DNA of 42,263 nucleotides from a virus. The DNA is taken from positions 1 to 42,263 of IMG/VR virus record IMGVR_UViG_3300022701_000060; one strand, 5' to 3'. A program made the position numbers and the translations under genes. The notes beneath the pieces are model-generated. The model was not told where the DNA came from. It worked only from the letters and a program-made list of their open reading frames with translations, and did not search any database. Positions within the stretch are counted from its first letter, which is position 1. Each line of letters opens with the position of its first letter. Of this stretch, positions 2,241 to 23,374 are shown one piece after another.

Positions 2241-3112
2241 TTTATCTCCGACTTAGTTCCCAAGAAATCCTTTCCATATACCTTATCAACTAAAAACTTT
2301 TTCTCTAATTTAGACATTCCAAAGTCTGTATAGTATCCCTCTATGGGAATTCTTTTAAGATATCTTACATCCATTACCATTGACTTAAATTCATGTGGTT
2401 CTAGGGCTGTTTCTAGGTGGTGTACAAATCCTGTTCTACTAAGAGTAAAGTGTCTTTCTATAATGTCAGCACCAAACATGTAAGCCATAAGAGAAGGCAT
2501 GTATCCTATCTCATGTCCAGAATATCCGATAACAACATCAGGATTATCTTTAAACATTTCTACCAAGAAAATAATATTTCCTAGTCTAATATTTTCAGGC
2601 TTGCATGGATACTCAGCAACACAGTGTTGAACATAAATTTTCTTAAATCCTTGTAAAGAATCTACTGCTTGTCTAATTTCTTCTTCTGTGGAACCAGCTA
2701 CAGAGATTACAATCTCTTTATCTTTTGGGATTTTAGAAACAATTGTATCTATAAAGTGCCAGTTTCTAGCATTAGTAGAAGCAATCTTATACATTGGCAA
2801 ATCATACTTTAACATAAAGTCTAAAGATGCTTCATCCTGTACAGTAACAAACCAAGGCAAAGGACAATGCTTATCAAAGATATCCCACTGTTCTTCATCC
2901 CACTCAAACATCTTTCTATATTCATAATAAGTATGTCCATAAGGACTATCAAACTGTGTCGATAACTTTTCACCAGAGTAAAAGTTCTCTACGTCTTTCT
3001 TCTGCATCTTAATATGGGTAGCACCAGCTTCGTTAGCTTTCTTAGCCATTTCTATTGCTACATTGAGATTACCCATATGGTTTGTAGTAAATTCAGCAAC
3101 AAACTTTACCAT
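2237..3112 (-). CDS. N-acetylneuraminate synthase family protein (NeuB-like, no SAF domain)
   Basis: 291 aa. The TIM-barrel core is recognisable: EFTTNHMGNL near the N-terminus, then ATHIKMQKKD, and late YSGHEIGY and IERHFTLSR. These are the usual NeuB landmarks for condensing phosphoenolpyruvate with a hexosamine or its 6-phosphate. Bacterial NeuB is normally about 340 residues with a C-terminal antifreeze-like SAF domain. That domain is missing, because the protein ends shortly after the barrel. It lies in an overlapping operon with the CMP-sugar synthetase. Product identity (sialic, legionaminic or pseudaminic type) is undetermined. Confidence 0.85.
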   Translation of the reverse strand: MVKFVAEFTTNHMGNLNVAIEMAKKANEAGATHIKMQKKDVENFYSGEKLSTQFDSPYGHTYYEYRKMFEWDEEQWDIFDKHCPLPWFVTVQDEASLDFMLKYDLPMYKIASTNARNWHFIDTIVSKIPKDKEIVISVAGSTEEEIRQAVDSLQGFKKIYVQHCVAEYPCKPENIRLGNIIFLVEMFKDNPDVVIGYSGHEIGYMPSLMAYMFGADIIERHFTLSRTGFVHHLETALEPHEFKSMVMDVRYLKRIPIEGYYTDFGMSKLEKKFLVDKVYGKDFLGTKSEIK

Positions 3113-3738
3113 CTTCCAAGCTCCTTGTAAATTTCATGTGCCTTTTTTCCATCAAATATTTGCTTTCTGATGTGATTCTCTTTCAAAAGTCTAGAGCTTG
3201 CATGTCTAAAAGCATCCTCTATCCACTCTTCTTTTACAAAAAGAACTGCATCCTCATCAGCAAAAATAGAATCGTCTTGTGTAATCTCTATTCCATTATA
3301 TTCAACAGGCTCTCCATATGACTTTATATTCCACATATCATAGGCATCTACACAGGTGTAACCTCCAGCAAAAGTTGGAAAACTACAGTCTAGCATTCCA
3401 GAATCTCTGGTTCTTCCAGTAATAATAGCACCTAAACAGCATTTATTAGCAAGAAACCTGCTTGTTATATCCCCAAAGGTAGCAACCTTATCTGTTCCAG
3501 ATTTCATAAAATAAATGCTAGCGTATCTAAAATCTTTTAGCATATCATTTACTTTCTCTAAATCAAGCTGTTCGGCTTCCATTCCCTCAACTGGATATAC
3601 TCTACCAAAGATAGGAATACCATAGTTATTTAGACAGGGAAAGTTTTTTGAGTCTCCCAAAAGAAATTCAGAATATTGTAATCCCATATCAAAATGTAGT
3701 GCATCACTCATAACGCCAGTATATAATAAGTTACTCAT
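3106..3738 (-). CDS. RraA / HMG-aldolase family-like protein
   Basis: 210 aa, start preceded by AAGGAG at about 10 nt. The central block resembles the RraA fold: TFGDITSRFLANKCCLGAII followed by TGRTRDSGML with the conserved Arg-Asp, then FAGGYTCVDAYD and the closing DDSIFADEDAVLFV. Members include the RNase E regulator RraA and metal-dependent HMG/CHA aldolases or oxaloacetate decarboxylases. In a cluster with NeuB (which uses phosphoenolpyruvate) and NeuA, an aldolase or lyase on a keto-acid sugar is a possible role, but this is a guess. Seven bases separate its upstream overlap from the glycosyltransferase stop, so the genes are cotranslated. Confidence 0.65.
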   Translation of the reverse strand: MSNLLYTGVMSDALHFDMGLQYSEFLLGDSKNFPCLNNYGIPIFGRVYPVEGMEAEQLDLEKVNDMLKDFRYASIYFMKSGTDKVATFGDITSRFLANKCCLGAIITGRTRDSGMLDCSFPTFAGGYTCVDAYDMWNIKSYGEPVEYNGIEITQDDSIFADEDAVLFVKEEWIEDAFRHASSRLLKENHIRKQIFDGKKAHEIYKELGRW

Positions 3739-4672
3739 AGTTTTTAAGCTCCTTTACAAAGTTGTCTATACTAGCTACAGTCCATGCTTGCTTTCTTTTT
3801 GATTGGACATTTGGAACATTCCAAGAATTTAAAGCTTTGAAAGCAGTACTTCTTACTTTTGGTAAATCAAAATATACAGGCTCTATCCCAAATTCTGGAA
3901 ATAGATATTTTGTAACACCATATGTATTTGATGACAAGGCAAAACACCCATGATATAAAGCCTCATATATATTTCTACCAGCAGTTAGTCTATATGATAC
4001 ATCAATAAATACTTTACTTCTATCAAGTAAATCATGAAATACCTTTACAGAAGAGGGGTCAAATTTAGTATTTTTTATAAGTTCAAAAGAAACAGAGTCT
4101 TTATATAAATCATAGGTACTTTTACCTATAACAATACACTTAACTTTGTGTTCTGAACTTAAAGATTCTAATAATTTAAGGGTAAGGGAGGCATTTCTAG
4201 AGCCAGTGTCCACCAGTCCTAAGAAATCTATGTCTCTATCCTCTCCTATCCTACATTCCATAGACCTATCATACATCCTCAATGGAATCCTTTTCACGTT
4301 TTCTGAGAAACAATTATATTCTAAAGGAATTTCCCACACAAATTTATTAGAAACTTCCTCCAATCTAGGAATTACCCAAGGAGTTTTAGTGCCTAGGTCT
4401 ATAGACTCTAGTCTATTTAAATGCTGGTCAGCATCAAACTCTACCCAAAAACTGTGTGCTACCTTAGCAATATCTTCATAGTACTTGGTCCAGACGCTCT
4501 TCCACTTTTCCTTCCAACAGATATGGAAATAGACATCTTTACCTTTCCAATAGCTAATAGGCTTTTTCTCAGCTTGAATATACCCAAGTCTTAAGTCAAG
4601 CCTATTAGCTATTAATCCAGCGGGATAAAATTCATTCCCTTTTTTATTCTTAGTTATTCCTATCCAGCCCAT
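3731..4672 (-). CDS. GT-B fold glycosyltransferase (GT4-like C-terminal half)
   Basis: 313 aa. The C-terminal part has the nucleotide-sugar site of GT4-type enzymes: IDFLGLVDTGSRN, a VIGKSTYDLY strand, FHDLLDRSKVFIDVS, and AGRNIYEALYHGCFALSSN, the E-x-x-x-x-G helix-turn that holds the donor diphosphate. The N-terminal half is diverged, starting MGWIGITK. It is the most upstream gene of the left sugar cassette. Donor and acceptor are unknown. The large C-terminal motif makes the family assignment fairly safe. Confidence 0.7.
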   Translation of the reverse strand: MGWIGITKNKKGNEFYPAGLIANRLDLRLGYIQAEKKPISYWKGKDVYFHICWKEKWKSVWTKYYEDIAKVAHSFWVEFDADQHLNRLESIDLGTKTPWVIPRLEEVSNKFVWEIPLEYNCFSENVKRIPLRMYDRSMECRIGEDRDIDFLGLVDTGSRNASLTLKLLESLSSEHKVKCIVIGKSTYDLYKDSVSFELIKNTKFDPSSVKVFHDLLDRSKVFIDVSYRLTAGRNIYEALYHGCFALSSNTYGVTKYLFPEFGIEPVYFDLPKVRSTAFKALNSWNVPNVQSKRKQAWTVASIDNFVKELKNYE

Positions 4673-4690
4673 ACCATTTCTCTTATAATC

Positions 4691-4804
4691 CTAAATTACT
4701 TGTTCTAAATAAGCTATGACTAGTACAAAAACTGTAAATACAGCCATTCCACCAATCAATAGCAAATCTAGTTTTCGTCTTAATGCTTCTGTATCCTCAT
4801 TCAT
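4691..4804 (-). CDS. Small single-span membrane protein, 37 aa
   Basis: Short frame preceded by a good ribosome site (AGAGGGG, five bases before ATG at 4802-4804). After a charged start (MNEDTEALRRK) there is one hydrophobic segment, LDLLLIGGMAVFTVFVLVIAY, enough for one membrane span, and a short polar tail. It resembles other tiny membrane proteins in this genome (at 15917 and 18005). It could be a spanin or holin accessory or a host-envelope modulator; nothing decides. Confidence 0.55.
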   Translation of the reverse strand: MNEDTEALRRKLDLLLIGGMAVFTVFVLVIAYLEQVI

Positions 4805-4858
4805 TTATCCCCTCTTGGCTAAAACCTCCAACCTTATGTTTTCCTTTTATATCTTAGT

Positions 4859-5463
4859 CTAATATAGCCAATATAGATAGTATAGTCTTATAGGTTTTTC
4901 TTCAGTTTCTCTAACTAAAATACCATCATAGTATTTAGTTATAATGTCCTTCCAATTCATTCCCTCTTTAGCATCGTCATAAGAGTCCCACTGCCCCATA
5001 CAGTTTTCCTCTTGTTCCCTTCCTAAACAGGTTGCGTATCTATCGTCATAATAAGTTCTTACTATTTTCTTATCATGAAGTAGTACCCAGTCCCAAGTAT
5101 CATCTACTGCTTTATCTGTAGACTCTGTTCTCCATTCTGGTCTGTATACTTGGTCCCAGTTACAATCCCAAACATAGCCATAAGTCTCGTACATACTCCA
5201 TCCATACATTTTTACTGCTATTGCTCCAGCTTTTAAGGATTCTTGATTCCAGTTATTTCCCCATTCAGCGGGTAAAACTCCTTTCACATACTCCTTAAAA
5301 TCCATAATGGTACGAGAATATGGGATTCCATTGTAGCAAGCACCTTCTCTCGTTACTAAAACTACTATTGTCTCTGGCGGTTTTGGAATTTCGCCTAAAA
5401 GTTCCGTTCCTATGACCGAAAAAGTGTCACCACAATAAGAATCAATGTTATCGGTGTATTCAT
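4859..5463 (-). CDS. SpoIID/LytB-domain protein, apparently frameshifted after the signal peptide
   Basis: The frame ending at 4859 encodes a SpoIID/LytB-like domain: DFKEYVKGVLPAEWG, then ESLKAGAIAVKMYGW and the region around QVYRPEW and AVDDTWDWV. SpoIID-family proteins act on peptidoglycan or its denuded strands. The first ATG in this frame (5303-5305) is too late: similar sequence continues upstream in frame through PPETIVVLVTREGACYNG, but no ATG, GTG or TTG exists back to an upstream stop. In the next frame an ATG at 5461-5463 encodes MNTPITLILIVVTLF, a perfect signal-peptide start, which stops at 5410. One extra T in the T5 run (A5 at 5419-5423 on the plus strand) would join both. The AAAGGAG site lies 15 nt upstream of that ATG, which is long. 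Confidence 0.7.
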
Positions 5464-5515
5464 AAATAGAAAACTTATCTCCTTTCTAATCTAATAAAAC
5501 CCTTAAACAGTTCTC

Positions 5516-5692
5516 CTACAAACCTTTCATAATATCGAGCTTCTCATTTAGAGTTTCAACTGTTTTATGAAGGTCTGAATTTTCCTGTAACAACGTCTTT
5601 ACATAGGTATCAGCATTAGTCTCATCAACTGGTCGCTCATCCTTGTAGTGGTCGTCAAGCAAAATTATAATATTTTCCATAGATTTTTCCAT
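5516..5692 (-). CDS. Small coiled-coil-like protein, 58 aa
   Basis: The start is ATG at 5690-5692 because AAGGAG lies six bases before it; a longer frame upstream would run through the tRNA-Leu gene. The protein is acidic and helical: an N-terminal MENIIILLDD patch, then a heptad-like tail (LLQENSDLHKTVETLNEKLD) suggesting a short coiled coil. No family is recognised. It follows the tRNA cluster in the same direction. Confidence 0.6.
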   Translation of the reverse strand: MEKSMENIIILLDDHYKDERPVDETNADTYVKTLLQENSDLHKTVETLNEKLDIMKGL

Positions 5693-5730
5693 AAGTCTCT
5701 CCTTACCTAAGTCTAATAAAACATCCCCAG

Positions 5731-5813
5731 TGCTAGCGGTGAGAGTCGAACTCACATGGGTTACCCCGTTGGGTCTTAAGTCCAATGCGTCTGCCTAATT
5801 TCGCCACGCTAGC
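5731..5813 (-). tRNA. tRNA-Leu (anticodon UAA)
   Basis: Seven-base acceptor stem (GCTAGCG with CGCTAGC), Leu-type D arm, anticodon loop CTTAAGA giving UAA (reads UUA), a long variable arm (CGGGGTAACCC region) as expected for class II leucine tRNA, and T arm with loop TTCGACT. The anticodon stem has one A-C mismatch beside the loop. No CCA is encoded. First of four clustered tRNA genes. Confidence 0.9.
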
Positions 5814-5817
5814 ATAG

Positions 5818-5892
5818 TGCTACTAACTGGAGTCGAACCAGTAAACAGCTTGTTTTGAGCAAGCTAGGTATGCCTATTCCCGTCATAGTAGC
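5818..5892 (-). tRNA. tRNA-Leu-like (anticodon CAA) with short variable loop
   Basis: Acceptor GCTACTA pairs with TAGTAGC, anticodon stem GCTTG/CAAGC with loop CTCAAAA giving CAA (reads UUG), T stem ACTGG/CCAGT with loop TTCGACT. The variable region is only five bases (TGTTT), whereas leucine tRNAs normally carry a long variable arm, and the D stem has a C-C mismatch. The D loop resembles the Leu type. The gene is recognisable, but the amino-acid identity and functionality deserve care. Confidence 0.75.
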
Positions 5893-5895
5893 TTG

Positions 5896-6020
5896 TGGGG
5901 AGAGTATGATTCGAACATACGCCTTTCTATTATCAGTAGATAACCCTTATCCATTCGACCCGCTAGTCAGGTAAATAAGCGGAAAGGATGTTTAACGCTC
6001 TGCCACTGAGCTATCTCCCC
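5896..6020 (-). tRNA. tRNA-Ile (GAU) interrupted by about 53 bases
   Basis: The two ends form one tRNA: acceptor GGGGAGA with TCTCCCC (7 bp), D arm GCTC AGTGGCAG AGC at the 5' side, and at the 3' side anticodon arm with loop CTGATAA (anticodon GAU), short variable region and T arm GTATG TTCGAAT CATAC. Between position 26 and the anticodon stem lies an extra segment (about 5943-5995) containing a CCGCT/AGCGG hairpin. This is not the usual intron position (37/38). It may be an intron-like insertion, a tRNA chimera or a pseudogene. Confidence 0.7.
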
Positions 6021-6024
6021 AAGG

Positions 6025-6107
6025 TGCTCTCAACAGGAATCGAACCTGTATGCCGTGAGGCACTACGTCCTAAGCGTAGCGTGTCTGCCTAATTCCACCA
6101 TGAGAGC
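6025..6107 (-). tRNA. tRNA-Leu (anticodon UAG)
   Basis: Acceptor GCTCTCA with TGAGAGC, anticodon stem CTACG/CGTAG with loop CTTAGGA giving UAG (reads CUA), long variable arm (TGCCTCACGGCAT), and T arm with loop TTCGATT. The 3' end is followed by encoded ACC rather than full CCA. First transcribed of the four tRNA genes. Confidence 0.92.
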
Positions 6108-6150
6108 AAATGTAGGGGAATCTCACCCCTACTTATTTTATTCTATTGTC

Positions 6151-6354
6151 CTACCAATTGAGAATTTCTGAATCATCTTCCCAAATTGTAGGTAAATCTT
6201 CTTTATCTGTGTAGATACTTACTTCCTCGTAATCAATGAAGTGTCTACATTGAGGACATCTAAGACTTCTTCTCTCTACCTCTTTAAAGTGTACTTCTTC
6301 CTCATAACCACAATGACTACAGTAGAGATTTACAAAATCTCCAGACCTCTGCAT
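6151..6354 (-). CDS. Zinc-ribbon protein, 67 aa
   Basis: ATG preceded by AAGGAGATATAGAA. Two CxxC pairs (CSHCG near residue 12 and CPQCR near residue 33) form a rubredoxin-like zinc ribbon, followed by an acidic tail ending SEILNW. No specific family is recognised; such small phage ribbons often bind nucleic acid or host proteins. It is downstream of the holin-like gene and upstream of the tRNA cluster in the same transcript. Confidence 0.75.
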   Translation of the reverse strand: MQRSGDFVNLYCSHCGYEEEVHFKEVERRSLRCPQCRHFIDYEEVSIYTDKEDLPTIWEDDSEILNW

Positions 6355-6366
6355 TTCTATATCTCC

Positions 6367-6744
6367 TTAAGCTAAATACTCAGCTGCCGCTTCTCTAGCT
6401 GACTCACCATAAGAACTATCTTTGATAGATTGATATGCTGTTTGGTTAGAAAGCTGGTTAATAACAGACAGTAGGATTACAGCAAACCATTGAGGAATAT
6501 ACTGTTCTACGTTGTAATTAATCGCCAGTTGGGACGATGATGCGATACCAACAGCAATAACCATAGGAACAATTTTCTTTACCCATGAAGGGAAATTGTG
6601 CCATGCAACCCAGTTTTCTAACACACGTGCCTCAAGCTGACCAAACAGCCATTGAGCACCTGCTAGTGTACCAAAGAATGCCAGCACTTCAAGAAGTGAG
6701 CCAAATTGCTCTAGTACTGCTGAAAAAACCATTGAAAAATTCAT
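6367..6744 (-). CDS. Holin-like membrane protein, 125 aa
   Basis: The start is ATG 6742-6744 with AAAGGAG six bases ahead; a longer start seven codons upstream overlaps the promoter leader. There are hydrophobic segments around LLEVLAFFGTLAGAQWLFG, IVPMVIAVGIASSS and WFAVILLSVINQL, then a charged C-terminus rich in alanine and glutamate. Size, two to three spans and first position after a strong promoter fit a phage holin, which makes pores for endolysin release. No recognisable endolysin adjoins it. Function is inferred from topology only. Confidence 0.55.
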   Translation of the reverse strand: MNFSMVFSAVLEQFGSLLEVLAFFGTLAGAQWLFGQLEARVLENWVAWHNFPSWVKKIVPMVIAVGIASSSQLAINYNVEQYIPQWFAVILLSVINQLSNQTAYQSIKDSSYGESAREAAAEYLA

Positions 6745-6763
6745 TTTAATCTCCTTTATTTGC

Positions 6764-6793
6764 ATTATACCACAAAAGGTATAATCTTGTCAA
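6764..6793 (-). promoter_or_regulatory. Sigma-70-type promoter with extended -10
   Basis: Reading leftward: TTGACA (6788-6793), 18-base spacer ending TGTGG, TATAAT (6764-6769). It lies 20 bases before the holin-like start. Shares the stretch CCTTTTGTGGTATAATG with the promoter at 18436. Confidence 0.85.
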
Positions 6794-6796
6794 GTA

Positions 6797-7606
6797 CTAA
6801 ATGTAGGGAATTTCTCCCGTTTTACCAGTATATTCCCTATTTACTATCCCATTATACACATTTTGATAAGGTTTTAATGCTTCATAACACTCATCATCAA
6901 ACCAATGTACATGGTCTCCTACCACTCCTTTCCTTCTCCATAAATCATCTCTTTTTTCCTGACCTGCTTTTCTTCCTGACCTATTTTTAAAGCTGTGTAC
7001 ATCCACATAATCCTGAATTAGCTGTTGTCTAGGAATTCCCTGACCTTTAAAAAGTGTCCTTAAAACTGTTTGAATTTCTCCTGCGGTATCTTTTTTCAAC
7101 CACTCATAAGTAGTCCAAACATAGTTAAAATTAGTTGAAGGATAAAAGTTACTAAAAGTACTATAGAAAGGAAGCATTAAATCACTTACCTGTCTGGTAT
7201 GTGAATGTAAAAATGCCCTATCTTCTAATGCAGTAACCTTGACAGCCTCTTCATCTGTTTTAACTTTCTTCTGTGGAAATTCTTGATATGTATGATGGTA
7301 TCTATTATGAAAAGCAAGTGATACAGTTCTATCATACGGATTACGAACTACTCCTAAAATCCCATAATCCTTTAAATCATATGCTTTAAGAAACCTGTCT
7401 AAAGCAATTGCTCCAACTCCATGAAATTTAGGAATTCTTCCCGCTTTCAGGTGTTCTTTAACAATTCCTAATACCGAATTGATACTCCCATCATAAAACC
7501 TACGTCCATCTATTTCAGGGGAAACTCCTTTTCCAAGAAGGTCGGCAAAAAGATAGTGCATCCACCTTGACCCAACCCTCTGTTCCGAGGTAATAATTAA
7601 ATTCAT
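6797..7606 (-). CDS. Sulfotransferase-family protein
   Basis: 269 aa from ATG 7604-7606, which forms ATGA with the kinase stop and is preceded by GAGGAG. The N-terminus (IITSEQRVGSRWMHYLF) resembles the 5'-phosphosulfate loop that binds the PAPS donor, and VVRNPYDRTVS matches the 3'-phosphate-binding motif R-N-P-x-x-R-x-x-S. Cytosolic-type sulfotransferases move sulfate from PAPS to hydroxyls or amines of glycans and small molecules. The acceptor is unknown. A role together with the left sugar cassette in decorating a glycan is inference. Confidence 0.75.
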   Translation of the reverse strand: MNLIITSEQRVGSRWMHYLFADLLGKGVSPEIDGRRFYDGSINSVLGIVKEHLKAGRIPKFHGVGAIALDRFLKAYDLKDYGILGVVRNPYDRTVSLAFHNRYHHTYQEFPQKKVKTDEEAVKVTALEDRAFLHSHTRQVSDLMLPFYSTFSNFYPSTNFNYVWTTYEWLKKDTAGEIQTVLRTLFKGQGIPRQQLIQDYVDVHSFKNRSGRKAGQEKRDDLWRRKGVVGDHVHWFDDECYEALKPYQNVYNGIVNREYTGKTGEIPYI

Positions 7607-14857: not shown

Positions 14858-15895
14858 CTAATCTACTAGTTCCTCAAATAATTCTTCCTCTGTTGGCTCT
14901 TCATCATCACTAGCCATTACAGTTTTATTAACAATCACATTATAACACATTTCTTTGATTTTGTCAAGCAGCTCTGGATTTTTCTCAAGTTCTTTTAGAG
15001 TATTGTTAAGACCATGTCCTAACTTATCTTCTTCATAGTAATAGTAAGAACCTCTGGTTTTTATTACACCAATAATCTTAGCAAACTCTACTGTGTCTCT
15101 TGCTGTATCTACACCCTTACCAAAGATAAACGGAATTTCCGCTGAACGAAATGGGGGTGCAACCTTATTTTTCTTAATAGAAAACTGTGTTAAAATTCCT
15201 ATCTGTTCTTTATTAGATAAGATGGCTTGTGGAGAATACAGCTGTATTCTGACTGTTGTGTAGTGCTTAAGAGACCAACCACCAGGAGTAGCGTATCCCC
15301 TAGAATACCCACCAATTTTATCACGAATCTGATTAATAAGCAAGAGTGCTACATTATTTCTACGAATGTATGGAGAATTTCTTCTAAAGAACTTTGATAG
15401 AAGTCTTGCAACTTCTGCCATTGTAGAATCCTCTAAGTCTTTCATCTGTTCTCTTCTAGAAGACAGAGCAGCAATAGAGTCTACAATTATCAAGTCAAAG
15501 TTTCCACTACGAATACCTCTCTCACAAATTTCCATGGCATCTTCTCCAACTTCTGGTTGAGTGATTACCATCTTTTGTGGAGTATAGTGTCCATCAAGAA
15601 GTTGTTTAGTATAGTCTAAATCAAGCATATTCTCAACATCAATATATAAAACCGTACCACCTTCTTTGATAACTTCTTTCGCAATACAGCACCCAAGAGT
15701 ACTTTTTCCAGTAGATTCTGGACCATATAATTCTGTAATCTTTCCTCTAGGAATTCCACCTACACCAAGAGAAATATCCAAAGAAGTACTTCCAGTACTT
15801 ATGGTTTGAAGTTCTCGTTCTTCTTTTACTAAAATATCCTCGTCAAAATCAGACCTAATTTCCTCAATGAACTCATCTACGTTTATATAATTCAT
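14858..15895 (-). CDS. recA: RecA-like recombinase
   Basis: 345 aa, ATG after AGGAAGAATAA. Walker A GPESTGKST at residues 58-66, preceded by STGSTSLDISLGVGGIPRGK as in RecA, Walker B LIIVDSIAAL at about 135-144, and LLLINQIRDK and the YATPGGWSLKHY region of the DNA-binding loops. The RecA core seems complete, with an acidic C-terminal tail. It drives strand exchange in phage recombination and repair and may help initiate recombination-dependent replication. A consensus promoter for downstream genes lies inside the 3' end of this gene. Confidence 0.95.
   Translation of the reverse strand: MNYINVDEFIEEIRSDFDEDILVKEERELQTISTGSTSLDISLGVGGIPRGKITELYGPESTGKSTLGCCIAKEVIKEGGTVLYIDVENMLDLDYTKQLLDGHYTPQKMVITQPEVGEDAMEICERGIRSGNFDLIIVDSIAALSSRREQMKDLEDSTMAEVARLLSKFFRRNSPYIRRNNVALLLINQIRDKIGGYSRGYATPGGWSLKHYTTVRIQLYSPQAILSNKEQIGILTQFSIKKNKVAPPFRSAEIPFIFGKGVDTARDTVEFAKIIGVIKTRGSYYYYEEDKLGHGLNNTLKELEKNPELLDKIKEMCYNVIVNKTVMASDDEEPTEEELFEELVD
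14939..14967 (-). promoter_or_regulatory. Intragenic promoter in recA 3' end
   Basis: Leftward TTGACA (14962-14967), 17-base spacer ending TGTGT, TATAAT (14939-14944), with the TG extended -10. It reads toward the acidic protein, SSB and DnaB genes. Confidence 0.75.
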
Positions 15896-15916
15896 TTATT
15901 CTTCCTTATTTCTATT

Positions 15917-16042
15917 CTAAAATCCTGCTAATTTCATTCCAATACCAAATAAATACCCAAGACTAATTGCGAAACTACCAACAGCAAAGGTCAAAAGAGC
16001 TAAAGCTAATATAAATCCCCACCAACTATCTATTTTTATCAT
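15917..16042 (-). CDS. Small membrane protein, 41 aa
   Basis: Frame from ATG 16040-16042, overlapping the polymerase stop in a TAATG junction, so translation is probably coupled. The sequence is one hydrophobic hairpin or two short spans (WGFILALALLTFAVGSFAIS and LGYLFGIGM) with little charge. It fills the gap between polymerase and recA. Function unknown. One of three tiny membrane proteins in the leftward operon. Confidence 0.55.
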   Translation of the reverse strand: MIKIDSWWGFILALALLTFAVGSFAISLGYLFGIGMKLAGF

Positions 16043-17889
16043 TATTTACTCCAGTATGGTAAGGCTTGGATACCAACTTCTGTTGGAATTTGTTTCATGA
16101 ATATCTCTCCAGCCTTTCTCATAACACTAACCATAAATTCTTTTGCCTCTTCCACAATATCATCATCCACTTCTGCAACAATTTCATCGTGTACAGTCAT
16201 AACAATTTTGAATTTATCTTTCCAAGGATTGTCATTATACATCATGAGTAAAGCATACTTCAACATGTCCGCTGACCCACCTTGAACAATATGATTAAAT
16301 CCTTCTCTATCAATTTTTCCTCGTTCTTTGTAGTAACTTGCCCCTGTACTCCCTTCTATAAGAGCATTTTTAGCAAATCCTCTACGTCTACCAATAGGAG
16401 TTACAGAATATCTTAGTTTCCAAACAGTCTTTTGAATACCCTTTTGGAACTGTGAAAGTCTAGGAAAACCTATTTCAAATCTTTCTAGTAGCTTTTCAGC
16501 TTCCTCATTGGTAATCCCCATTGTTCTAGCTAAACCATAAGAAGATGAACCATAAAGTACAGCAAAGTTAACAGTTTTACCTCTAGTTCGTTGCTTTTTA
16601 GTTACTTCTTCTAGTGGAATATCATACAAAAGTGAAGCTGTAGCAGTATGCATATCCATGCCTTTCTGATAAGCTTCAATGATTGCTGGTTCACCAGATA
16701 ATTCTCCAGCCAATCTAAATTCTTGCTGTGAATAGTCTGCTGTAATAAGTTTCTTACCTTCTGGTGCAATAAAGCACTCACGGTATTCACTTCCAGCAAT
16801 AATATTTTGTAAATTTGGGTCTCTTGATGAGAACCGCCCTGTTGCAGTTCCTATTTGATTAAATCTAGCATAAATTCTCCCATCTTCCTTGACTTTATCT
16901 ATAAACTCAAGACCATAAGTTGTAACTCGCTTATAGTTTTTTCTAAATTCTAACATAAGTTCAGCTACAGGATACTTCTTCGCCAATGAAATTAAGACCT
17001 TTTCAGCAGTAGAATCAACTCCAGCACCCATCAGATTGAACGCTCTTTTCATTTGCTTTGGAGAAGCTAAGTTAATATGCTCTAGGAATTCTTTCTCAAC
17101 CAACACTAGCTGGTCTATTTTTATTTCTTCTAGCCGTTTTTTCTCGGTTTTTGTCTTTTTGAATGTAATAAACCAAAATTCCAGTACATCTCTGGCATGT
17201 AAAAATTGATTCTCAGGAATAACTTTATCCCTACAAAATTCCCAAAAAGATTCTCTAATTTCTTTTTCTAATCTTGTTGAGTTATCTAAAGCGATATTAT
17301 ACAGCCTCATCCATCCATCAACGTCAATTAGGACTCCATTACTTTCTATTGCTGCTACTACAGGAACTACATCCATCTCAAGCTTATGCACAATATCTAA
17401 TCGTTTTTCCTCAAGTAATGGTAATTGTTTAGCCCTAATATCTCTAAGATGCAGAACATCTGTAGCACCATAGATTAGCATATCTTGAGTAAGTTCTTTA
17501 TCTTTAGCACCAACAAACTTTTTTACAGTTTCTTTTTCTATTATCTCGCCTAAATATTTAAAACAAAGTTCCTGATAAGAAGCAAATTTTTCCCTAGCTT
17601 CTGTAATTAAATACTCCGTAATCATCGTACAATGTACGTTCCTAAAAAGAATCCCATAATTTTCGTAGATAAATTTAATATCAAATTTAGCATTATGAGC
17701 AATTACAGGCTTGTTAGATAATAATAAAAGTTCTAGAATATACCTAGTAACCTTTTCTGGTAGCTTTTTATTTTCTATGAGATAGGTAGTGTCGTTAATT
17801 CTAAACTGAATTAACAATAGGTCATCATCCTTAAAATCAAAACCAGTAGATTCTATGTCAAGTGCAATTACATCTGTTTTTAATTTAAT
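16042..17889 (-). CDS. DNA polymerase I-type (family A) with 3'-5' exonuclease
   Basis: About 615 aa. Exo I (VIALDIESTGFDF), Exo II (VIAHNAKFDIKF) and Exo III (YGATDVLHL) are followed by the family A motifs: A, DYSQQEFRLA; B, RTRGKTVNFAVLYGSSSYG; and C, MTVHDEIVAEV. No 5' nuclease domain is present, as in T7-like replicative enzymes. The first canonical start (TTG 17815-17817) would cut off Exo I. The frame is open upstream to a stop, but without ATG, GTG or TTG. An ATT at 17887-17889, giving a start of the form Ile/Met-Lys-Leu-Lys, is the likely initiation site. It is driven by the promoter at 17966. Confidence 0.93.
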   Translation of the reverse strand: MKLKTDVIALDIESTGFDFKDDDLLLIQFRINDTTYLIENKKLPEKVTRYILELLLLSNKPVIAHNAKFDIKFIYENYGILFRNVHCTMITEYLITEAREKFASYQELCFKYLGEIIEKETVKKFVGAKDKELTQDMLIYGATDVLHLRDIRAKQLPLLEEKRLDIVHKLEMDVVPVVAAIESNGVLIDVDGWMRLYNIALDNSTRLEKEIRESFWEFCRDKVIPENQFLHARDVLEFWFITFKKTKTEKKRLEEIKIDQLVLVEKEFLEHINLASPKQMKRAFNLMGAGVDSTAEKVLISLAKKYPVAELMLEFRKNYKRVTTYGLEFIDKVKEDGRIYARFNQIGTATGRFSSRDPNLQNIIAGSEYRECFIAPEGKKLITADYSQQEFRLAGELSGEPAIIEAYQKGMDMHTATASLLYDIPLEEVTKKQRTRGKTVNFAVLYGSSSYGLARTMGITNEEAEKLLERFEIGFPRLSQFQKGIQKTVWKLRYSVTPIGRRRGFAKNALIEGSTGASYYKERGKIDREGFNHIVQGGSADMLKYALLMMYNDNPWKDKFKIVMTVHDEIVAEVDDDIVEEAKEFMVSVMRKAGEIFMKQIPTEVGIQALPYWSK

Positions 17890-17965
17890 CTTTAATAGAC
17901 TCTTTGTTTAAAGGATTAATTAATTAATATACGTTTTAACAATGTATATACATCTATCTAAAATG

Positions 17966-17994
17966 ATTATACCATAAATTTTAGAGTTTGTCAA
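17966..17994 (-). promoter_or_regulatory. Promoter for the polymerase gene
   Basis: Leftward TTGACA (17989-17994), 17-base spacer ending TATGG, TATAAT (17966-17971), extended -10. The leader of roughly 70 bases to the polymerase coding start is very AT-rich and contains no clear ribosome site. Confidence 0.85.
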
Positions 17995-18004
17995 GACCCA
18001 ATTT

Positions 18005-18130
18005 TTAGTCATTGTTTGAAATAATAGCAATAATAATTAACAAGAAAATTATCCAGAAATGTGGTTCAGTAATCGGTGCTACATCAGATAAAAACCAGCC
18101 AATTCCTATAAGTGCTAAAGTTCTAATCAT
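18005..18130 (-). CDS. Small membrane protein, 41 aa
   Basis: ATG 18128-18130 with GGAGGTAGA directly ahead, forming ATGA with the upstream stop. Two hydrophobic stretches, IRTLALIGIGWFL and FWIIFLLIIIAIIS, flank a short polar loop. It is the second gene from the leftward hub promoter, so likely early. Candidate host-membrane or superinfection-type protein; the function cannot be inferred from sequence. Confidence 0.6.
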   Translation of the reverse strand: MIRTLALIGIGWFLSDVAPITEPHFWIIFLLIIIAIISNND

Positions 18131-18354
18131 TCTACCTCCGAGTCAAAAGTTTCAAATCCTTCAAGCTTACTATGTGGTGCTTTTACACATACACCATTCA
18201 GCAATTGTCTTCCACATACTACACAGTATTCTTTATCCCTATAAACCCAGCTACTTCCAAGACGTTGATATAGGTCATCAATTTCGTCTGCTAGCTGATT
18301 AACAGACCATTTTTCACGTAATCCTACAGTTAATAATTGACTCAATCTATCCAT
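18127..18354 (-). CDS. Small early protein with CxxC motif, 75 aa
   Basis: ATG preceded by AAGGAGGAATTT. An N-terminal helical part (LREKWSVNQLADEIDDLYQR) is followed by CVVCGRQLLNGVC, a half zinc-binding site. It is the first leftward gene downstream of the promoter at 18436. Its ribosome-binding region overlaps the -35 of the rightward promoter at 18365. No family is recognised. Confidence 0.7.
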   Translation of the reverse strand: MDRLSQLLTVGLREKWSVNQLADEIDDLYQRLGSSWVYRDKEYCVVCGRQLLNGVCVKAPHSKLEGFETFDSEVE

Positions 18355-18364
18355 AAATTCCTCC

Positions 18365-18393
18365 TTGACAAACTTAGCAATTTGTGTTATAAT
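18365..18393 (+). promoter_or_regulatory. Rightward early promoter
   Basis: TTGACA (18365-18370), 17-base spacer ending TGTGT, TATAAT (18388-18393), extended -10. It reads into the zinc-protein series beginning at 18464. The -35 lies over the ribosome site of the leftward gene. Confidence 0.88.
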
Positions 18394-18435
18394 ATATTAT
18401 AATGAAGTAACATTCAAATTCAAAACTTTACACAC

Positions 18436-18464
18436 ATTATACCACAAAAGGAGGAGTTTGTCAA
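18436..18464 (-). promoter_or_regulatory. Leftward early promoter facing the rightward one
   Basis: Leftward TTGACA (18459-18464), 17-base spacer ending TGTGG, TATAAT (18436-18441), extended -10. Its -35 covers the start codon and ribosome site of the first rightward gene. Expected transcript start near 18429, upstream (to the right) of the rightward start near 18400, so the two transcripts overlap by about 30 bases at their 5' ends. Confidence 0.85.
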
Positions 18465-18670
18465 TGGAGAAAGAGATTCCTGTGATAAGTATGTCTCAAT
18501 TTCGTAGAGTAAAGGCACAGGGAGGTAACCCTGTACTTGTGCGTAGATGTAATAATTGTGGATATCATATGGAAAAATTACGAGGAGTTACCAACAAAAT
18601 GAAGCCTAGAATTAGGTGGATATGTTTAAACTGTGGAACAGAACATGAGATTAAGGAAAATATGAAATGA
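18464..18670 (+). CDS. Zinc-ribbon early protein, 68 aa
   Basis: ATG 18464-18466 preceded by AAGGAGGAG, chosen over a longer upstream frame that would cover the promoters. Two CxxC pairs (CNNCGYH and CLNCGTEH) with basic residues between suggest a zinc ribbon that contacts nucleic acid. It is the first gene of the rightward early series. No specific family. Confidence 0.75.
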   Translation: MEKEIPVISMSQFRRVKAQGGNPVLVRRCNNCGYHMEKLRGVTNKMKPRIRWICLNCGTEHEIKENMK

Positions 18671-18855
18671 GTGATTATGAGTTAAATGAGCATCTAGATT
18701 ACTTAGATAGATGTCATGAAGATTGGTTAGAATATGGTGATTATCTTCATGATATACAGAAAGAAGAGGTAGAACCTAGACCTACCTACTGTACCTGTGG
18801 TCGAACTGTGTGCACTTGTAAACCAGTAGTTAACTGGACTAAGGAGGACAAATGA
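18667..18855 (+). CDS. Small acidic cysteine-rich protein, 62 aa
   Basis: ATGA overlap with the previous gene. Acidic N-terminal helix (ELNEHLDYLDRCHEDWLEYG) and a C-terminal CTCGRTVCTCK cluster that may bind metal. Overlaps the next gene by four bases, indicating coupling. No family is recognised. Confidence 0.65.
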   Translation: MSDYELNEHLDYLDRCHEDWLEYGDYLHDIQKEEVEPRPTYCTCGRTVCTCKPVVNWTKEDK

Positions 18856-19235
18856 ACGAGAAAAACCAAGCGATACTAGAAGAGAAGATTGAAAAGATAC
18901 TCACGGAAAGAATTTCAAGATATATGCCCGTAAAAATGAAGCGGTGGGTAATTATCAAATCTATCGCTAAAGATATAGTTGATGCCCTCACCTCCCAAGA
19001 GGGGGAGACGCATATTAGTCATCCCCAACAAGAACCATTTCATCTGATGATAGAATATGAAAAAACCCTCACCGCCCAAGAGGAGGAGAGGGAAGTGAAA
19101 ACTGAGCTAAGAAAAAGAGTTGAGGAACTGGAAAAAACAATGCAATGTAACTGCGATTTGGATAATTGGCAACCGGAAACAGACACAGGTCATTCATGGG
19201 TTTGCCGTATTCACAAAAAAGCCAAAGGAGGGTGA
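18852..19235 (+). CDS. Early protein with NQAIL/LTAQE motifs, 127 aa
   Basis: ATGA start inside the previous gene's end, preceded by AAGGAGGACAA. It starts NEKNQAILEEKIEKIL and later contains LTAQEEER, motifs that recur in the next two genes. A C-terminal part with CNCDLDNW and HSWVCRIH could form a zinc site. The three tandem genes look like products of duplication. Function unknown. Confidence 0.6.
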   Translation: MNEKNQAILEEKIEKILTERISRYMPVKMKRWVIIKSIAKDIVDALTSQEGETHISHPQQEPFHLMIEYEKTLTAQEEEREVKTELRKRVEELEKTMQCNCDLDNWQPETDTGHSWVCRIHKKAKGG

Positions 19236-19238
19236 GTG

Positions 19239-19442
19239 ATGAATAAGAGAAACCAAGCGATACTGGATGAGTTGAAAGCGGTATTAGAGGAAGATAAAAA
19301 AGCAGGTCACACCTTGAACATTGCATGGATTTATGGGTGTATGAACTCCTACCTCACCGCACAGGAGGGGGGAAAGAAGGTAACCCAACGGCAGAGAGAT
19401 AACAACCCGTATGACCTCACAACAAAGATGGGTAAGCGATGA
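19239..19442 (+). CDS. Paralogue of the preceding early gene, 67 aa
   Basis: ATG 19239-19241 after AGGAGGGTGAGTG (an in-frame GTG precedes it). NKRNQAILDELKAVLEED at the N-terminus and SYLTAQEGGKK match the neighbours at 18852 and 19439. Stop overlaps the next start (ATGA). No domain is recognised. Confidence 0.6.
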   Translation: MNKRNQAILDELKAVLEEDKKAGHTLNIAWIYGCMNSYLTAQEGGKKVTQRQRDNNPYDLTTKMGKR

Positions 19443-19657
19443 ATAAGCAAGCGATACTGGACAGATTAAGAGAAATGCTGTTTGACGGGGGCGTACTTAC
19501 CTACGAAGAAATTATGGAGGAGATGGATAAAATCCTCACCGCACAAGAGAGGGAGAATGCGCCTCCTATTGAGGTAACAAATGACCAAGCGATACTTGAT
19601 TGGAGTGATGAACATTCACACTTTACATACCAAGATGGATTAGTCCTCAATGTGTAG
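19439..19657 (+). CDS. Paralogue of the preceding early genes, 72 aa
   Basis: Starts in the ATGA of the previous gene. NKQAILDRLREMLFDGG and KILTAQERE repeat the family motifs, and a second QAILDW segment occurs mid-protein. The C-terminal half differs from its neighbours. Function unknown. Confidence 0.6.
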   Translation: MNKQAILDRLREMLFDGGVLTYEEIMEEMDKILTAQERENAPPIEVTNDQAILDWSDEHSHFTYQDGLVLNV

Positions 19658-19673
19658 ACAGGGAAGGTGAAGG

Positions 19674-19910
19674 ATGAGTAAATACAGTTTTCATTGTTGT
19701 ATGTGTGGGCAATTTGTTCCATGGAGCGCAGATAGTAGTACCTATTGGGGAGACAGCACGATGACAGTCCCGCCAGACCCCGATTACTATTGCACGAGGT
19801 GCGCCGAGAAATGTAAGCAAGAAGCAATTAGAAAAGGTTACGTCATGAATGCTTATTGGATAAAACCTAAATGGCAACTAGAAGCAATGAAAGCTATTAG
19901 ACGTGGATGA
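19674..19910 (+). CDS. Zinc-finger-like early protein, 78 aa
   Basis: ATG after GGGAAGGTGAAGG. CCMCGQF and CTRCAEKC flank an aromatic/polar segment (PWSADSSTYWGDS) and make a likely four-cysteine zinc site. The C-terminus is helical and basic. It ends just before the GC-rich structured region. Conserved-looking but unnamed. Confidence 0.65.
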   Translation: MSKYSFHCCMCGQFVPWSADSSTYWGDSTMTVPPDPDYYCTRCAEKCKQEAIRKGYVMNAYWIKPKWQLEAMKAIRRG

Positions 19911-19916
19911 TACGAG

Positions 19917-20082
19917 ATTAGGGAGTATGGGGCGGTCGGGAAACCAGTGGGCGAAACCAGGTGGCAACAGAGAATCCTTAGCCCTAGCAGGCGGTCGGGG
20001 CGCTGAGAAAATCCCGACACAGCGTAAACCGGATAACCCGTCAAGTGTGGTGCTGGCTGTAATCTTGGTCACCGCCCCTAAT
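19917..20082 (+). ncRNA. Candidate structured RNA (gene-free, GC-rich)
   Basis: No convincing gene lies between 19911 and 20107. The stretch is much richer in G and C than its neighbours. A closing helix pairs GGGGCGGT (19929-19936) with ACCGCCCC (20071-20078), extended by ATTA (19917-19920) with TAAT (20079-20082) across an 8-base bulge. Inside, GTCGGG (19994-19999) pairs CCCGAC (20013-20018) while CGCTG (20001-20005) pairs CAGCG (20020-20024), an H-type pseudoknot. GGCGGTCGGG occurs twice. No known RNA family is recognised. It could be a riboregulator or a stand-alone phage RNA; function is unknown. Confidence 0.55.
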
Positions 20083-20107
20083 TTTACTAGAACAAGGAAG
20101 GTGAGTG

Positions 20108-20290
20108 ATGAATAAAACATATACTATAACACTTAAAATCGAAAATGAAAAAGGAGAAATTCTATCTACATATAAACATATAGGAGTTACAGAGACTCTT
20201 ATGACTATAAAAGAAAAGAATTTTGATTCAGTTACAATGAGAATGCTAAGTGACCTTATTCAAAGGATGAAGGATAAAAAATGGTTATAA
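20108..20290 (+). CDS. Hypothetical early protein, 60 aa
   Basis: ATG 20108-20110 after AAGGAAGGTGAGTG (an in-frame GTG is three bases earlier). Beta-strand-like N-terminus (TYTITLKIENEKG) and a helical C-terminus (MRMLSDLIQRMKDKK). Overlaps the next gene by ten bases. No family is recognised. Confidence 0.6.
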   Translation: MNKTYTITLKIENEKGEILSTYKHIGVTETLMTIKEKNFDSVTMRMLSDLIQRMKDKKWL

Positions 20291-20463
20291 AGAAAACAAG
20301 TGAGGAATGGAGTAAAGAGTATGGTCCAGAGGTTATTGACCCTGATGGTTGGGATAGAACAAATTTTCAATATAGTTGGTATGAAGAGAAGATAACCAAA
20401 GAAGAATATGAGAATCGTCTTGTTAAGTCTACAATAATATTTAATACAGGAAAGAAGAATTAA
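20281..20463 (+). CDS. Hypothetical conserved-type phage protein, 60 aa
   Basis: Begins inside the end of the previous gene. It contains PDGWDRTNFQYSWYEEKIT and KEEYENRLVKST, a compact tryptophan/tyrosine-rich block reminiscent of short uncharacterised phage proteins. No function can be assigned. Confidence 0.55.
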   Translation: MVIKKTSEEWSKEYGPEVIDPDGWDRTNFQYSWYEEKITKEEYENRLVKSTIIFNTGKKN

Positions 20464-20694
20464 ATGGCTATAAGTACCCTAAAAGGAAAATATAAATGTC
20501 TATTCTGTGAAAAGGAATATGACACTGCTAGTGAGGCAGATGAGTGTGTTATTAAGCATGAACTTTATTACATACCAATGACAAAAGAAGAAATCAATCA
20601 GCTTATACAATACATATATGATTTAAGAGACCCACCAATACAACTCATTGGAAGACTAAAGAAAATTATGAGGAATAGAGCAGGAAAGAAATAA
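20464..20694 (+). CDS. Small zinc-finger protein, 76 aa
   Basis: Starts one codon after the previous stop. YKCLFCEKEYDTASEADECVIKH has the C-x2-C...C...H layout of a C2H2-like finger, followed by a helical, basic C-terminus (IGRLKKIMRNRAGKK). Probably DNA- or RNA-binding (inference). Part of the rightward zinc-protein series. Confidence 0.65.
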   Translation: MAISTLKGKYKCLFCEKEYDTASEADECVIKHELYYIPMTKEEINQLIQYIYDLRDPPIQLIGRLKKIMRNRAGKK

Positions 20695-20910
20695 TTGTCA
20701 GCTAAGCGTGTAGAAAAATCTAAAGAATGTCTTTATTGTAAATTTCATAAGAAGAAAGTAAAAGATACAGATTGGAAAGTGGTAGCATTAGATAGACCAT
20801 ATCTAAATCTGTTATTTCATGCTTCCTGCCATGAAAAAATAGGCAAAAATATGCGTAGTTTTTTGCAAGATTCTAAGGAAATATGGTATAATGAGAGAAG
20901 AAAAGATTAA
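20695..20910 (+). CDS. Small zinc-site protein, TTG start, 71 aa
   Basis: TTG start right after the previous TAA, with AGGAAAG upstream. ECLYCKFH near the N-terminus and FHASCHEK in the middle could form a C2-CH/H zinc site; otherwise basic. A possible promoter (20863-20892) overlaps its 3' end. Function unknown. Confidence 0.6.
   Translation: MSAKRVEKSKECLYCKFHKKKVKDTDWKVVALDRPYLNLLFHASCHEKIGKNMRSFLQDSKEIWYNERRKD
20863..20892 (+). promoter_or_regulatory. Possible rightward promoter before the virion genes
   Basis: TATGGTATAAT (extended -10, TATAAT at 20887-20892) with an 18-base spacer to a weak -35, TTGCAA (20863-20868). It resembles the promoter class seen elsewhere but the -35 is poor and it sits in coding sequence, overlapping the next start codon. 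Confidence 0.4.
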
Positions 20911-21091
20911 AAAAGAAGAAAAAATAGAGAAAAAAGAATTCACCCCTTTTGAAAGAAAACTAAAACTTGAAGCAAGGGGAGGCGAACCATCAAAGATAGG
21001 GTGTCCAGTATGTGGTGATACGGAAAACTTAGTACCATCAGGTAGATGTGTAACTTGTTTATCTTGTGGATGGTCTAAGTGTAGTTTATAG
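20891..21091 (+). CDS. RNR-type C-terminal zinc-ribbon protein, 66 aa
   Basis: A charged N-terminus (repeated EKIEKKE) is followed by CPVCGDTENLVPSGRCVTCL and SCGWSKC. This four-cysteine arrangement with a late GWSKC resembles the C-terminal zinc ribbon of B12-dependent ribonucleotide reductases, but no reductase domain is present. Could be a stand-alone adaptor or a relic. The start (ATG 20891-20893) overlaps the previous gene by 20 bases. Confidence 0.65.
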   Translation: MREEKIKKEEKIEKKEFTPFERKLKLEARGGEPSKIGCPVCGDTENLVPSGRCVTCLSCGWSKCSL

Positions 21092-21100
21092 GAGGAAATC

Positions 21101-21793
21101 TTGGCACGTTCAAAGGAAAGTTTAAGAAACTTATATCAGTATAAAGATTTAACTGATGAAGAATTTGAAGAGGTTTGGCAAGAAAGACAGGAAAGAGAAG
21201 CTAGAATGTCTCCACAGAAAGAGGAGTTAGAATCTAGAATTGATGCAATGGTCGAGGATTTCAGAGAAGACTATGCTCTGAATGACCTGAAGTTCAATGA
21301 TATGCAAGACCTTCGGGCATTGATTAGAGCTATTCTTGCTTTAAAAGATTATGAAGATACTCTTTATGAGATACAGAAAGACGGTATTGGTACTGAAAAT
21401 ATCAGAATTATTGGGGATTTAAATAAGTTTATTTCCCAAACTAGAAAAGATATTACTAATCTACAGGAATCTTTAAAGATTAGTAGGAAGGTTCGTAAAG
21501 AAGAAAGGGAAGATTCTATAGAAGCTTATATTCTGAATTTGCAAGATAAAGCAAATACATTTTATAAGCATAAGGTATTCAAGGCAGTATGTCCAGAATG
21601 CGGAATGATGTTGTTTGATGGATGGTTTCTATATCCTGAAGAAGACAATAAGATTACTCTGGAATGTGGGAGAATGATTGAGGATATGGAAGACGATTCT
21701 GCTAGAAAGTGTACTGGAAGGCTGGAAATAACATCGAAGGAACTCAAAGAAAAACAAAAAGAATATAAAGAATTATTTCCAGAGGGACTCTAA
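21101..21793 (+). CDS. Putative small terminase subunit with zinc ribbon
   Basis: 230 aa, TTG start after ATAGGAGGAAATC. Immediately upstream of the large terminase, where the small subunit is expected. The middle is helical (ALIRAILALKDYEDTLYEI, then TNLQESLKIS) and a C-terminal part holds CPECG and a second, spaced cysteine pair (LECGRM, RKCTG). Small terminases recognise packaging sites and control the motor. The identification rests on position and length; no diagnostic HTH is clear. Confidence 0.55.
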   Translation: MARSKESLRNLYQYKDLTDEEFEEVWQERQEREARMSPQKEELESRIDAMVEDFREDYALNDLKFNDMQDLRALIRAILALKDYEDTLYEIQKDGIGTENIRIIGDLNKFISQTRKDITNLQESLKISRKVRKEEREDSIEAYILNLQDKANTFYKHKVFKAVCPECGMMLFDGWFLYPEEDNKITLECGRMIEDMEDDSARKCTGRLEITSKELKEKQKEYKELFPEGL

Positions 21794-21796
21794 TAT

Positions 21797-23374
21797 ATGG
21801 CAGTACAAGAAAAACTTTCTGAAAAAGAGATTCAGCTTGCTAGAATCTTTAAAAACCCTGTTCTATTCTCAGAATTTCTTCATGAGATTGACTCTAACGA
21901 TGATATTCTAAGAGAGGAAGTAGCTGATGTAGAACAAAACATGGAACTTACAATATACCAGAAAGAAGTTCTTTGTGACACTAATCCATATATTTCCATG
22001 AGAGCTGCACGTGCAGTAGGAAAAACCTTCTCTATCGTACACTATATTATCTGGATTCTATTTAACAATCTTTATCCAGGAGAGTATATTATCTACTCTG
22101 TACCTAACAAAGCACAGTTAGACCCTGTATGGGAAATGCTAAAAACATTTTACAGAATAAACAGTTTACTAAAGAACTTCGTAAACTATCGTAGTGGTAT
22201 CAACAACTCAGAACACAGGATAGAGACAAAAAGCGGTGCTACTCTTATGTGCAGAATCGCAGGACAGTCTGGAAAGGGAGAGAATGTTATTGGTTTGCAC
22301 ACACCATTCTTTATTGTAGATGAATCTGGTTATTATCCTTGGGGAACTTGGCTAGAACTTCAGGCTACAATCAACTACTGGATGAATGGAAGCAAGCTTA
22401 TTGTCTCTGGAGTTCCTACAGGAATTCGGGAAGATAATGTAAATTTTCATGTGGATAAGCAAGATAAAACTTATAGCAAATATAGAATTGATGCCTATCA
22501 AAATCCTAGATTTGATGAAGAAGCAGAAGCTGATGCTATAAGAAGATATGGTGGAAAGGACACTGAGGAATTTGCTCACTTTGTTTTAGGAAAACATGGT
22601 TCTCCTGTTTATGCAGTATTTGATAGACGGTTGTTTGATATACAATCATACCCTATATATAAAATTGCAATAAATGGGATAACTTTTGGAGAGAAGATAA
22701 AAGACTACGAGCAGAAAATTCAGCTTTTACCAGCTATGCCAAAAAATAATGGAGTGATTTTTGGGATAGATTTAGGATATACTGAACCTACCGCTATTTT
22801 CATTATGTATCTTGATGAAGATATGAGATTTAAATTTCACTCTAAAATAAGACTAGTCAAAGTTCCGTATCCAATTCAAAAGGTATTTATTGATAAACTG
22901 GATTCAAAATATAATCCATCCCTTATAGGAATAGATGAAGGACACTCTGGTATGAGTGTAACACAGGACTTATTGAAGGGTAAAGCATTCAGAAAAAAGA
23001 ATTATGAGGACTACCTAATACCTATAAAATTCAATTCTGCAATTGCTTTAGGCACAGATGAGGATGGAAAAGAAATAAAAACGAGGGCTAAACCGCTATC
23101 TGTTTCTTTACTACAGGAATATTCTAATGAACAGAGAATTATTTACTCTGTAAAAGATATGGAAATAGTTTCTGAGTTAGAGAGAATGACCTATGTAAAG
23201 AACCCAACAACAGGATTAATATCATATAGGACATTAACTCCTGCTGGTGGAAAGAGTGGAGCAGACCACTTTACAGCCTCACTTTTATGTGCTGTACTTG
23301 CTTATTATCTAGTAAATGAAAAGTTGGATTATAGAGCTAGACAAACTAAATTATTAGGAACAGGTTGGTTATAA
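21797..23374 (+). CDS. Terminase large subunit
   Basis: 525 aa. ATPase: Walker A RAARAVGKT (about 69-77), Walker B FFIVDES (171-177), motor-coupling VSGVPTG near 205. The nuclease is RNase H-fold with FGIDLGYTEP (D325), LIGIDEGHSG (D380) and GADHFTASL (D490). The motor pumps DNA into the procapsid and cuts concatemers. All key acidic residues of motor and nuclease are present. The stop overlaps the portal start (TAATG). Confidence 0.93.
   Translation: MAVQEKLSEKEIQLARIFKNPVLFSEFLHEIDSNDDILREEVADVEQNMELTIYQKEVLCDTNPYISMRAARAVGKTFSIVHYIIWILFNNLYPGEYIIYSVPNKAQLDPVWEMLKTFYRINSLLKNFVNYRSGINNSEHRIETKSGATLMCRIAGQSGKGENVIGLHTPFFIVDESGYYPWGTWLELQATINYWMNGSKLIVSGVPTGIREDNVNFHVDKQDKTYSKYRIDAYQNPRFDEEAEADAIRRYGGKDTEEFAHFVLGKHGSPVYAVFDRRLFDIQSYPIYKIAINGITFGEKIKDYEQKIQLLPAMPKNNGVIFGIDLGYTEPTAIFIMYLDEDMRFKFHSKIRLVKVPYPIQKVFIDKLDSKYNPSLIGIDEGHSGMSVTQDLLKGKAFRKKNYEDYLIPIKFNSAIALGTDEDGKEIKTRAKPLSVSLLQEYSNEQRIIYSVKDMEIVSELERMTYVKNPTTGLISYRTLTPAGGKSGADHFTASLLCAVLAYYLVNEKLDYRARQTKLLGTGWL

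Follow-up and report, generated by a model that had tools for sequence, protein, structure and literature searches.

Why a phage would aim two perfect promoters at each other across the point where its genes diverge is the question raised by IMGVR_UViG_3300022701_000060, an uncultured virus contig whose 42,263 bases were analyzed at full length (here, the window). The left arm of the window is read leftward and encodes a DNA polymerase I-type protein, a RecA/UvsX-like recombinase, a single-strand binding protein, a DnaB-like helicase, and a RusA-like resolvase. The right arm starts with small proteins and continues with the terminase, portal, head, and tail proteins. No close relative of the terminase and of the hub between the arms was found in 50,697 deposited phage records. 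The sole hit among genome contigs in a host lookup was a contig of a Bathyarchaeota MAG, which is likely misbinned because the promoters of the window are of the bacterial type. Three tRNA-Leu genes stand in a row (anticodons taa, caa, and tag; 5730-6107, minus strand). Moreover, sugar-related genes at 1587-7606 (minus strand) for a cytidylyltransferase, NeuB, an RraA-like protein, a sulfotransferase, and a glycosyltransferase (just below the cutoff) hint at modification of a surface sugar by the phage.

Facing promoters at the divergent hub

The features on which the argument depends are as follows.

14858-15895, minus strand: gene for the RecA/UvsX-like recombinase
14939-14967 (read 14967-14939), minus strand: predicted 12/12, TG-extended promoter near the 3' end of the recA coding sequence
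16042-17817, minus strand: polA, DNA polymerase I-type, the first large gene of the left arm
17966-17994, minus strand: P3, the second leftward predicted promoter, upstream of polA, 12/12, TG-extended
18127-18354, minus strand: first leftward gene, 75 aa, CxxC-containing, without a family match; ribosome site at 18366-18360
18365-18393, plus strand: P1, predicted rightward promoter of the terminase arm, TTGACA-17-TATAAT, 12/12, TG-extended -10
18400-18429, either strand: predicted 5'-end overlap of 30 nt, from the -10 positions
18436-18464 (read 18464-18436), minus strand: P2, predicted leftward promoter of the polA arm, facing P1, TTGACA-17-TATAAT, 12/12, TG-extended -10
18464-18670, plus strand: first rightward gene, 68 aa, zinc-ribbon-like (below the Pfam cutoff); ribosome site at 18447-18454

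An earlier, sequence-only reading had described perfect, TG-extended promoters face to face at the divergent hub, and both were found. P1 and P2 each combine TTGACA, a spacer in the range of 16 to 18, TATAAT, and the TG extension, as sigma-70-type promoters do. Their -10 elements are 42 bp apart. Start sites predicted from the -10 position only fall at 18400 (plus) and 18429 (minus), 29 bp from each other, and would give leaders of 64 nt and 75 nt, respectively, with a 30-nt overlap that, as a prediction, agrees with the roughly 30 bases proposed earlier. We infer the activity of both promoters and their start sites from these elements.

The same reading held that each -35 element sits in the ribosome site or start codon of the opposite gene. 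Contact exists on both sides, but the opposite signals are clipped rather than occupied: the -35 of P1 has 2 bases (18365-18366) in common with the AAGGAGG of the left gene, and the -35 of P2 has 1 base (18464) in common with the ATG of the right gene. The ribosome site of the right gene falls within the spacer of P2. All of this is packed into a divergent intergenic region of 109 bp, and the predicted overlap ends before both genes and leaves both ribosome sites outside.

Six 12/12 TG-extended promoters were found in the window, five of them leftward and one, P1, the only 12/12 promoter pointing rightward. Markov-shuffled windows held a mean of 0.1 promoters at 12/12 and none with TG (200 shuffles). 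Random placement of six promoters gave at least one pair facing within 56 bp about 1% of the time (P of ~0.01). Elsewhere in the arms, an extended -10 with a weak -35 lies directly before the terminase cluster (20863-20892, plus strand) and is a candidate later promoter; a similar site occurs in locus L212 (1868-1897). On the other side, the polA frame runs on upstream (17817-17900, minus strand) with a DIESTG exonuclease-like motif, before which there is no ATG, GTG, or TTG; relatives differ.

Recurrence and turnover of the hub in relatives

Two kinds of search bear on whether the layout recurs, one guided by geometry and one free of it. A pattern of two perfect facing promoters with a -10 gap of 26 to 56, blind to lineage, was run over all viral contigs. 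It matched 46 stretches, in 33 similarity groups, versus 3 stretches at gaps of 57 to 87, and close facing is therefore preferred. At least 120 stretches matched a back-to-back pattern, and facing is thus the rarer arrangement overall. Six of the 46 hold at least one window homologue that places them in the lineage (gaps in parentheses): L099 (42), L112 (46), L127, which is L011 (46), L130 (46), L135 (48), and L138 (46); L096 was not counted, as it has only one kinase-like gene in common with the window. GC runs lie between the promoters in 21 of the 46, which resemble another class of element. This second class, on unrelated contigs, has A/T-rich flanks around a center that is GC rich and often dyad-like, includes L095, L097, L100, L101, L105, L114, L118, L120, L124, L134, and L136 among others, and is possibly a small repeated element.

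L099, L112, L130, L135, and L138 were first found through the facing scan and are layout biased; they are not independent and stand outside the count that follows, which rests on nine relatives gathered without hub geometry. A polA search gave L002 (the same as G001), L011, L012, and L013. A search with a small hub-adjacent protein, for which the query alignment included some facing-scan loci, gave the new loci L211, L213, and L214; L213 and L214 are near-copies with matching results and were counted once. G002, G003, and G005 came from a pattern built on the recA-internal promoter; it was mostly unspecific, and of at least 118 new loci, L405, L356, and L382 had the lineage recA and its neighbors. 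A facing pair, defined as two promoters scoring 12/14 or better that point at each other across no more than 200 bp, was present in 5 of the 9, with -10 gaps of 43 (L012), 46 (L011), 72 (G003), 154 (G001), and 196 (G002), and there was none within 200 bp in the other four (L013, L211, L213 with its near-copy, and G005). The short form, with a gap of at most 56, was found in only two of the nine. Shuffled hubs produced a facing pair in 0 to 0.3% of cases (ten hubs, 300 shuffles per hub), and polA identity among the relatives is only 35 to 40% in several cases. By the same definition, 5 of 80 polA-search loci had a facing pair (L011, L012, L021, which is again G001, L083, and L084), and in L083 and L084 it lies about 6 kb from polA.

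Some loci were kept out of the count. L430 covers the structural arm only, without polA or recA in the locus, and has two leftward strong promoters and no rightward one. L204 lacks both polA and any strong promoter, and since its contig stops 762 bases short of the anchor gene, the hub may be missing from it. L279 and L297 came from the back-to-back scan; L279 has a facing pair (gap of 165) plus a back-to-back pair, and in L297 a back-to-back pair (gap of 39) accompanies a weak facing pair (gap of 180). A back-to-back pair with a gap of 25 is also found in L356/G005. The facing layout does not form one clade in the polA tree, in which the deep forks are unresolved. A single origin of the layout gains no support there: the tree needs two changes. 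A function for the facing layout is plausible because the layout is conserved in part of the lineage.

What the promoters drive changes. In L130, polA itself is the first leftward gene; the first genes of the hub are otherwise unalike among relatives (zinc-ribbon-like, small hydrophobic, and GP30.3-family proteins), and the promoters therefore outlast their cargo. L207 has a homologue of the first rightward gene of the window, but across the hub, on the opposite side. In G001, L279, and G002, the first rightward gene contains the facing promoter, antisense, in its 3' part, where its codons read LLDDIIHHYDVLVK, LLDNIIPEIRDIVK, and YIDDIINDFDVIVN, respectively. A second polA-ward promoter closer to polA occurs in the window, L011, L012, L135, G001, G002, and L279; none was seen in L130 and G003. 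A central dyad was tried as a general feature and rejected, being strong in L130, L135, and L012 but without significance in five further hubs, of which the window is one (stem P of 0.95). Intein-sized insertions were noted in polA of L011 (965 aa, 2417-5314) and in the terminase of L130 (916 aa, 2620-5367).

As for the promoter inside recA, all nine distinct RecA genes with 39% identity or more whose 3' end is covered (window, L138, L011, L135, L012, L213, G001, L297, and L211) have a 14/14 promoter in their final 110 coding bases, and it is absent from 7 of 7 RecA genes of at most 34% identity (L013, L031, L020, L087, L023, L041, and L045). Loci chosen by the recA-promoter pattern were excluded, and L279, where RecA is incomplete in the locus, was not counted. 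The promoter sits in the codons for LD(K/T)Ixxx(C)YN, and in the window the codons for LDKIxxxCYN serve both the protein and the predicted promoter.

Proposed division of polymerase between the arms

A promoter-bound polymerase is taken to cover about -55 to +20. In the window and close relatives the predicted starts are 29 to 35 bp apart, and two polymerase footprints would therefore overlap. The favored reading, at about even odds, is a compact hub at which P1 and P2 exclude each other. The main RNA polymerase of the host would read both promoters, with P1 supplying the terminase and structural arm and P2 supplying the polA arm. Polymerase bound at either would occupy DNA that the other needs, such that each could fire only when the other was empty, and a departing polymerase would sweep across the other promoter. 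The arms would then share transcription at a set ratio in alternating bursts, each at about half its unopposed rate. P3 and additional promoters would give the left arm a partial escape; the right arm has P1 as its sole consensus promoter.

A small stochastic model, in which footprint sizes and rates were assumed, left each promoter with 0.43 to 0.83 of the rate it had when unopposed, for a start distance of 29 to 35 bp, and P1 returned to full rate when P2 binding was removed. Collision between polymerases, as proposed earlier, would be the least likely of three effects, as polymerases at 29 bp already overlap and no collisions were recorded in the model at 29 to 35 bp. One study states that a short promoter separation lowers collision and that equal strength minimizes sitting-duck loss (PMC6593788), and the model agrees with these points. 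Modeled in this way, the hub would be a throttle or divider of about twofold when the promoters are equal, not a strong switch. We infer the steric exclusion and any benefit to the phage. The three long versions (G001, L279, and G002) have 154 to 196 bp between -10 elements, at which footprints would not overlap, and there collisions and antisense transcription would be expected instead. A single mechanism may therefore not hold for the whole lineage. Weighing against mutual exclusion are these long versions, the four relatives that have no facing pair within 200 bp, the scatter of the layout over the polA tree, the modest size of the predicted effect, and the lack of a recognized regulator among the window proteins scanned.

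Perhaps the layout needs no regulatory explanation: two strong promoters may have been squeezed into a 109-bp region and overlap as a result of compactness, which we consider credible though somewhat unlikely. The complement of a strong ribosome site (CCTCCTT) leads naturally into TTGACA, and fusion of a -35 box with a ribosome site is seen on both sides in L011 and on at least one side in L112, L138, L099, and the window (left side); some relatives (L356/G005 and L297) have back-to-back pairs in place of facing ones. Against this stand G001, L279, and G002, where a second promoter already lies nearer polA and compactness does not call for the antisense polA-ward one. Those same three loci would suit antisense control, in which, in the manner of excludon-type transcripts, complementary 5' ends pair and change how stable the two messages are or how they are processed (RNase III would be one route), since their polA-ward transcript would cross the first rightward gene antisense over all of its upstream part. 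The sequence-only reading had raised such pairing for the window, and it is sterically possible there (a 30-nt perfect complement with a duplex of -39.3 kcal/mol); the dyads of L130, L135, and L012 would also give 5' hairpins. Antisense control as the function of the hub is nevertheless improbable, as both ribosome sites of the window lie outside the overlap and the window lacks a significant dyad.

The earlier proposal of a switch between left and right programs keeps its facing layout at the hub but lacks something to break the symmetry, as the scan of window proteins recognized no repressor, Cro/Cox-like protein, or integrase. Lysis-lysogeny control of the P2/186 type is very improbable: the facing geometry is there at a distance similar to the one given in PMC7498355, but the scanned window proteins included no recognized Apl-like protein either, and the first genes of relatives are unrelated small proteins. 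Finally, that the region is mainly a replication origin, primed or opened by transcription from the hub, is barely credible. GC skew flips sign at the hub, and the 300-bp interval beside polA (17700-17999) has the lowest GC of 15000-21899, but the flip also follows from the change of coding strand.

A wider claim is rather unlikely in our estimation: that this lineage keeps two maximal host promoters facing as a conserved, self-limiting, repressor-free hub. They would stand either close enough for exclusion or with one small gene between them, its 3' codons doubling as the opposing promoter. Steric exclusion or antisense transcription would by itself divide traffic between the arms, and hub genes would come and go. 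The scan also raises the question of why gaps of 26 to 56 are far commoner than gaps of 57 to 87 in viral contigs.

Comparison with known systems

The closest known geometry is that of coliphage 186 pR/pL and P2 Pe/Pc, in which two facing promoters lie between divergent gene sets. The lytic and lysogenic promoters of P2-like phages are face to face and 40 to 60 bp apart (PMC7498355); the window has 42 bp between -10 elements and predicted starts 29 bp apart, and distance definitions may differ between the two. The 186 promoters are convergent, with 5.6-fold interference at pL (PMC6593788). Promoter and ribosome-site sequences are intertwined in 186, as at the window hub, and a -10 mutation of pL also cut Apl expression, as would be expected if the apl ribosome site were damaged (PMC7498355, PMC6593788). 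Unlike 186 and P2, both window promoters are full consensus, and the arms are replication and structural modules. Neither first gene of the window matched a repressor or HTH family in PHROGs or Pfam, and no Cox/Apl-like directionality factor or integrase was found among the window proteins scanned, in a record that may be incomplete. Thus, the window may work partly like the P2/186 system, but a lysogeny switch of that type is not supported.

Bacterial bidirectional promoters offer a likeness in mechanism. At these, one polymerase binding event excludes the other orientation (PMC12825309), as is proposed for the window. Bidirectional promoters share symmetrical elements and diverge, however, whereas the window has two complete promoters that face. 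Divergent genes and predicted complementary 5' RNA link the window to transcripts of the excludon type, but its overlap is only 30 nt with both ribosome sites free. An excludon is a long antisense RNA that covers a divergent gene and is also the mRNA for a neighbor. No antisense RNA is predicted across the divergent gene in the window, and the long versions in G001, L279, and G002 are most like an excludon and, by sequence, come nearer to one. Interference between facing promoters has been best studied in temperate phages, in which a repressor breaks the symmetry. A lineage without a recognized repressor that holds maximal promoters facing over deep divergence would be a natural, protein-free test of how polymerase is shared between two arms.
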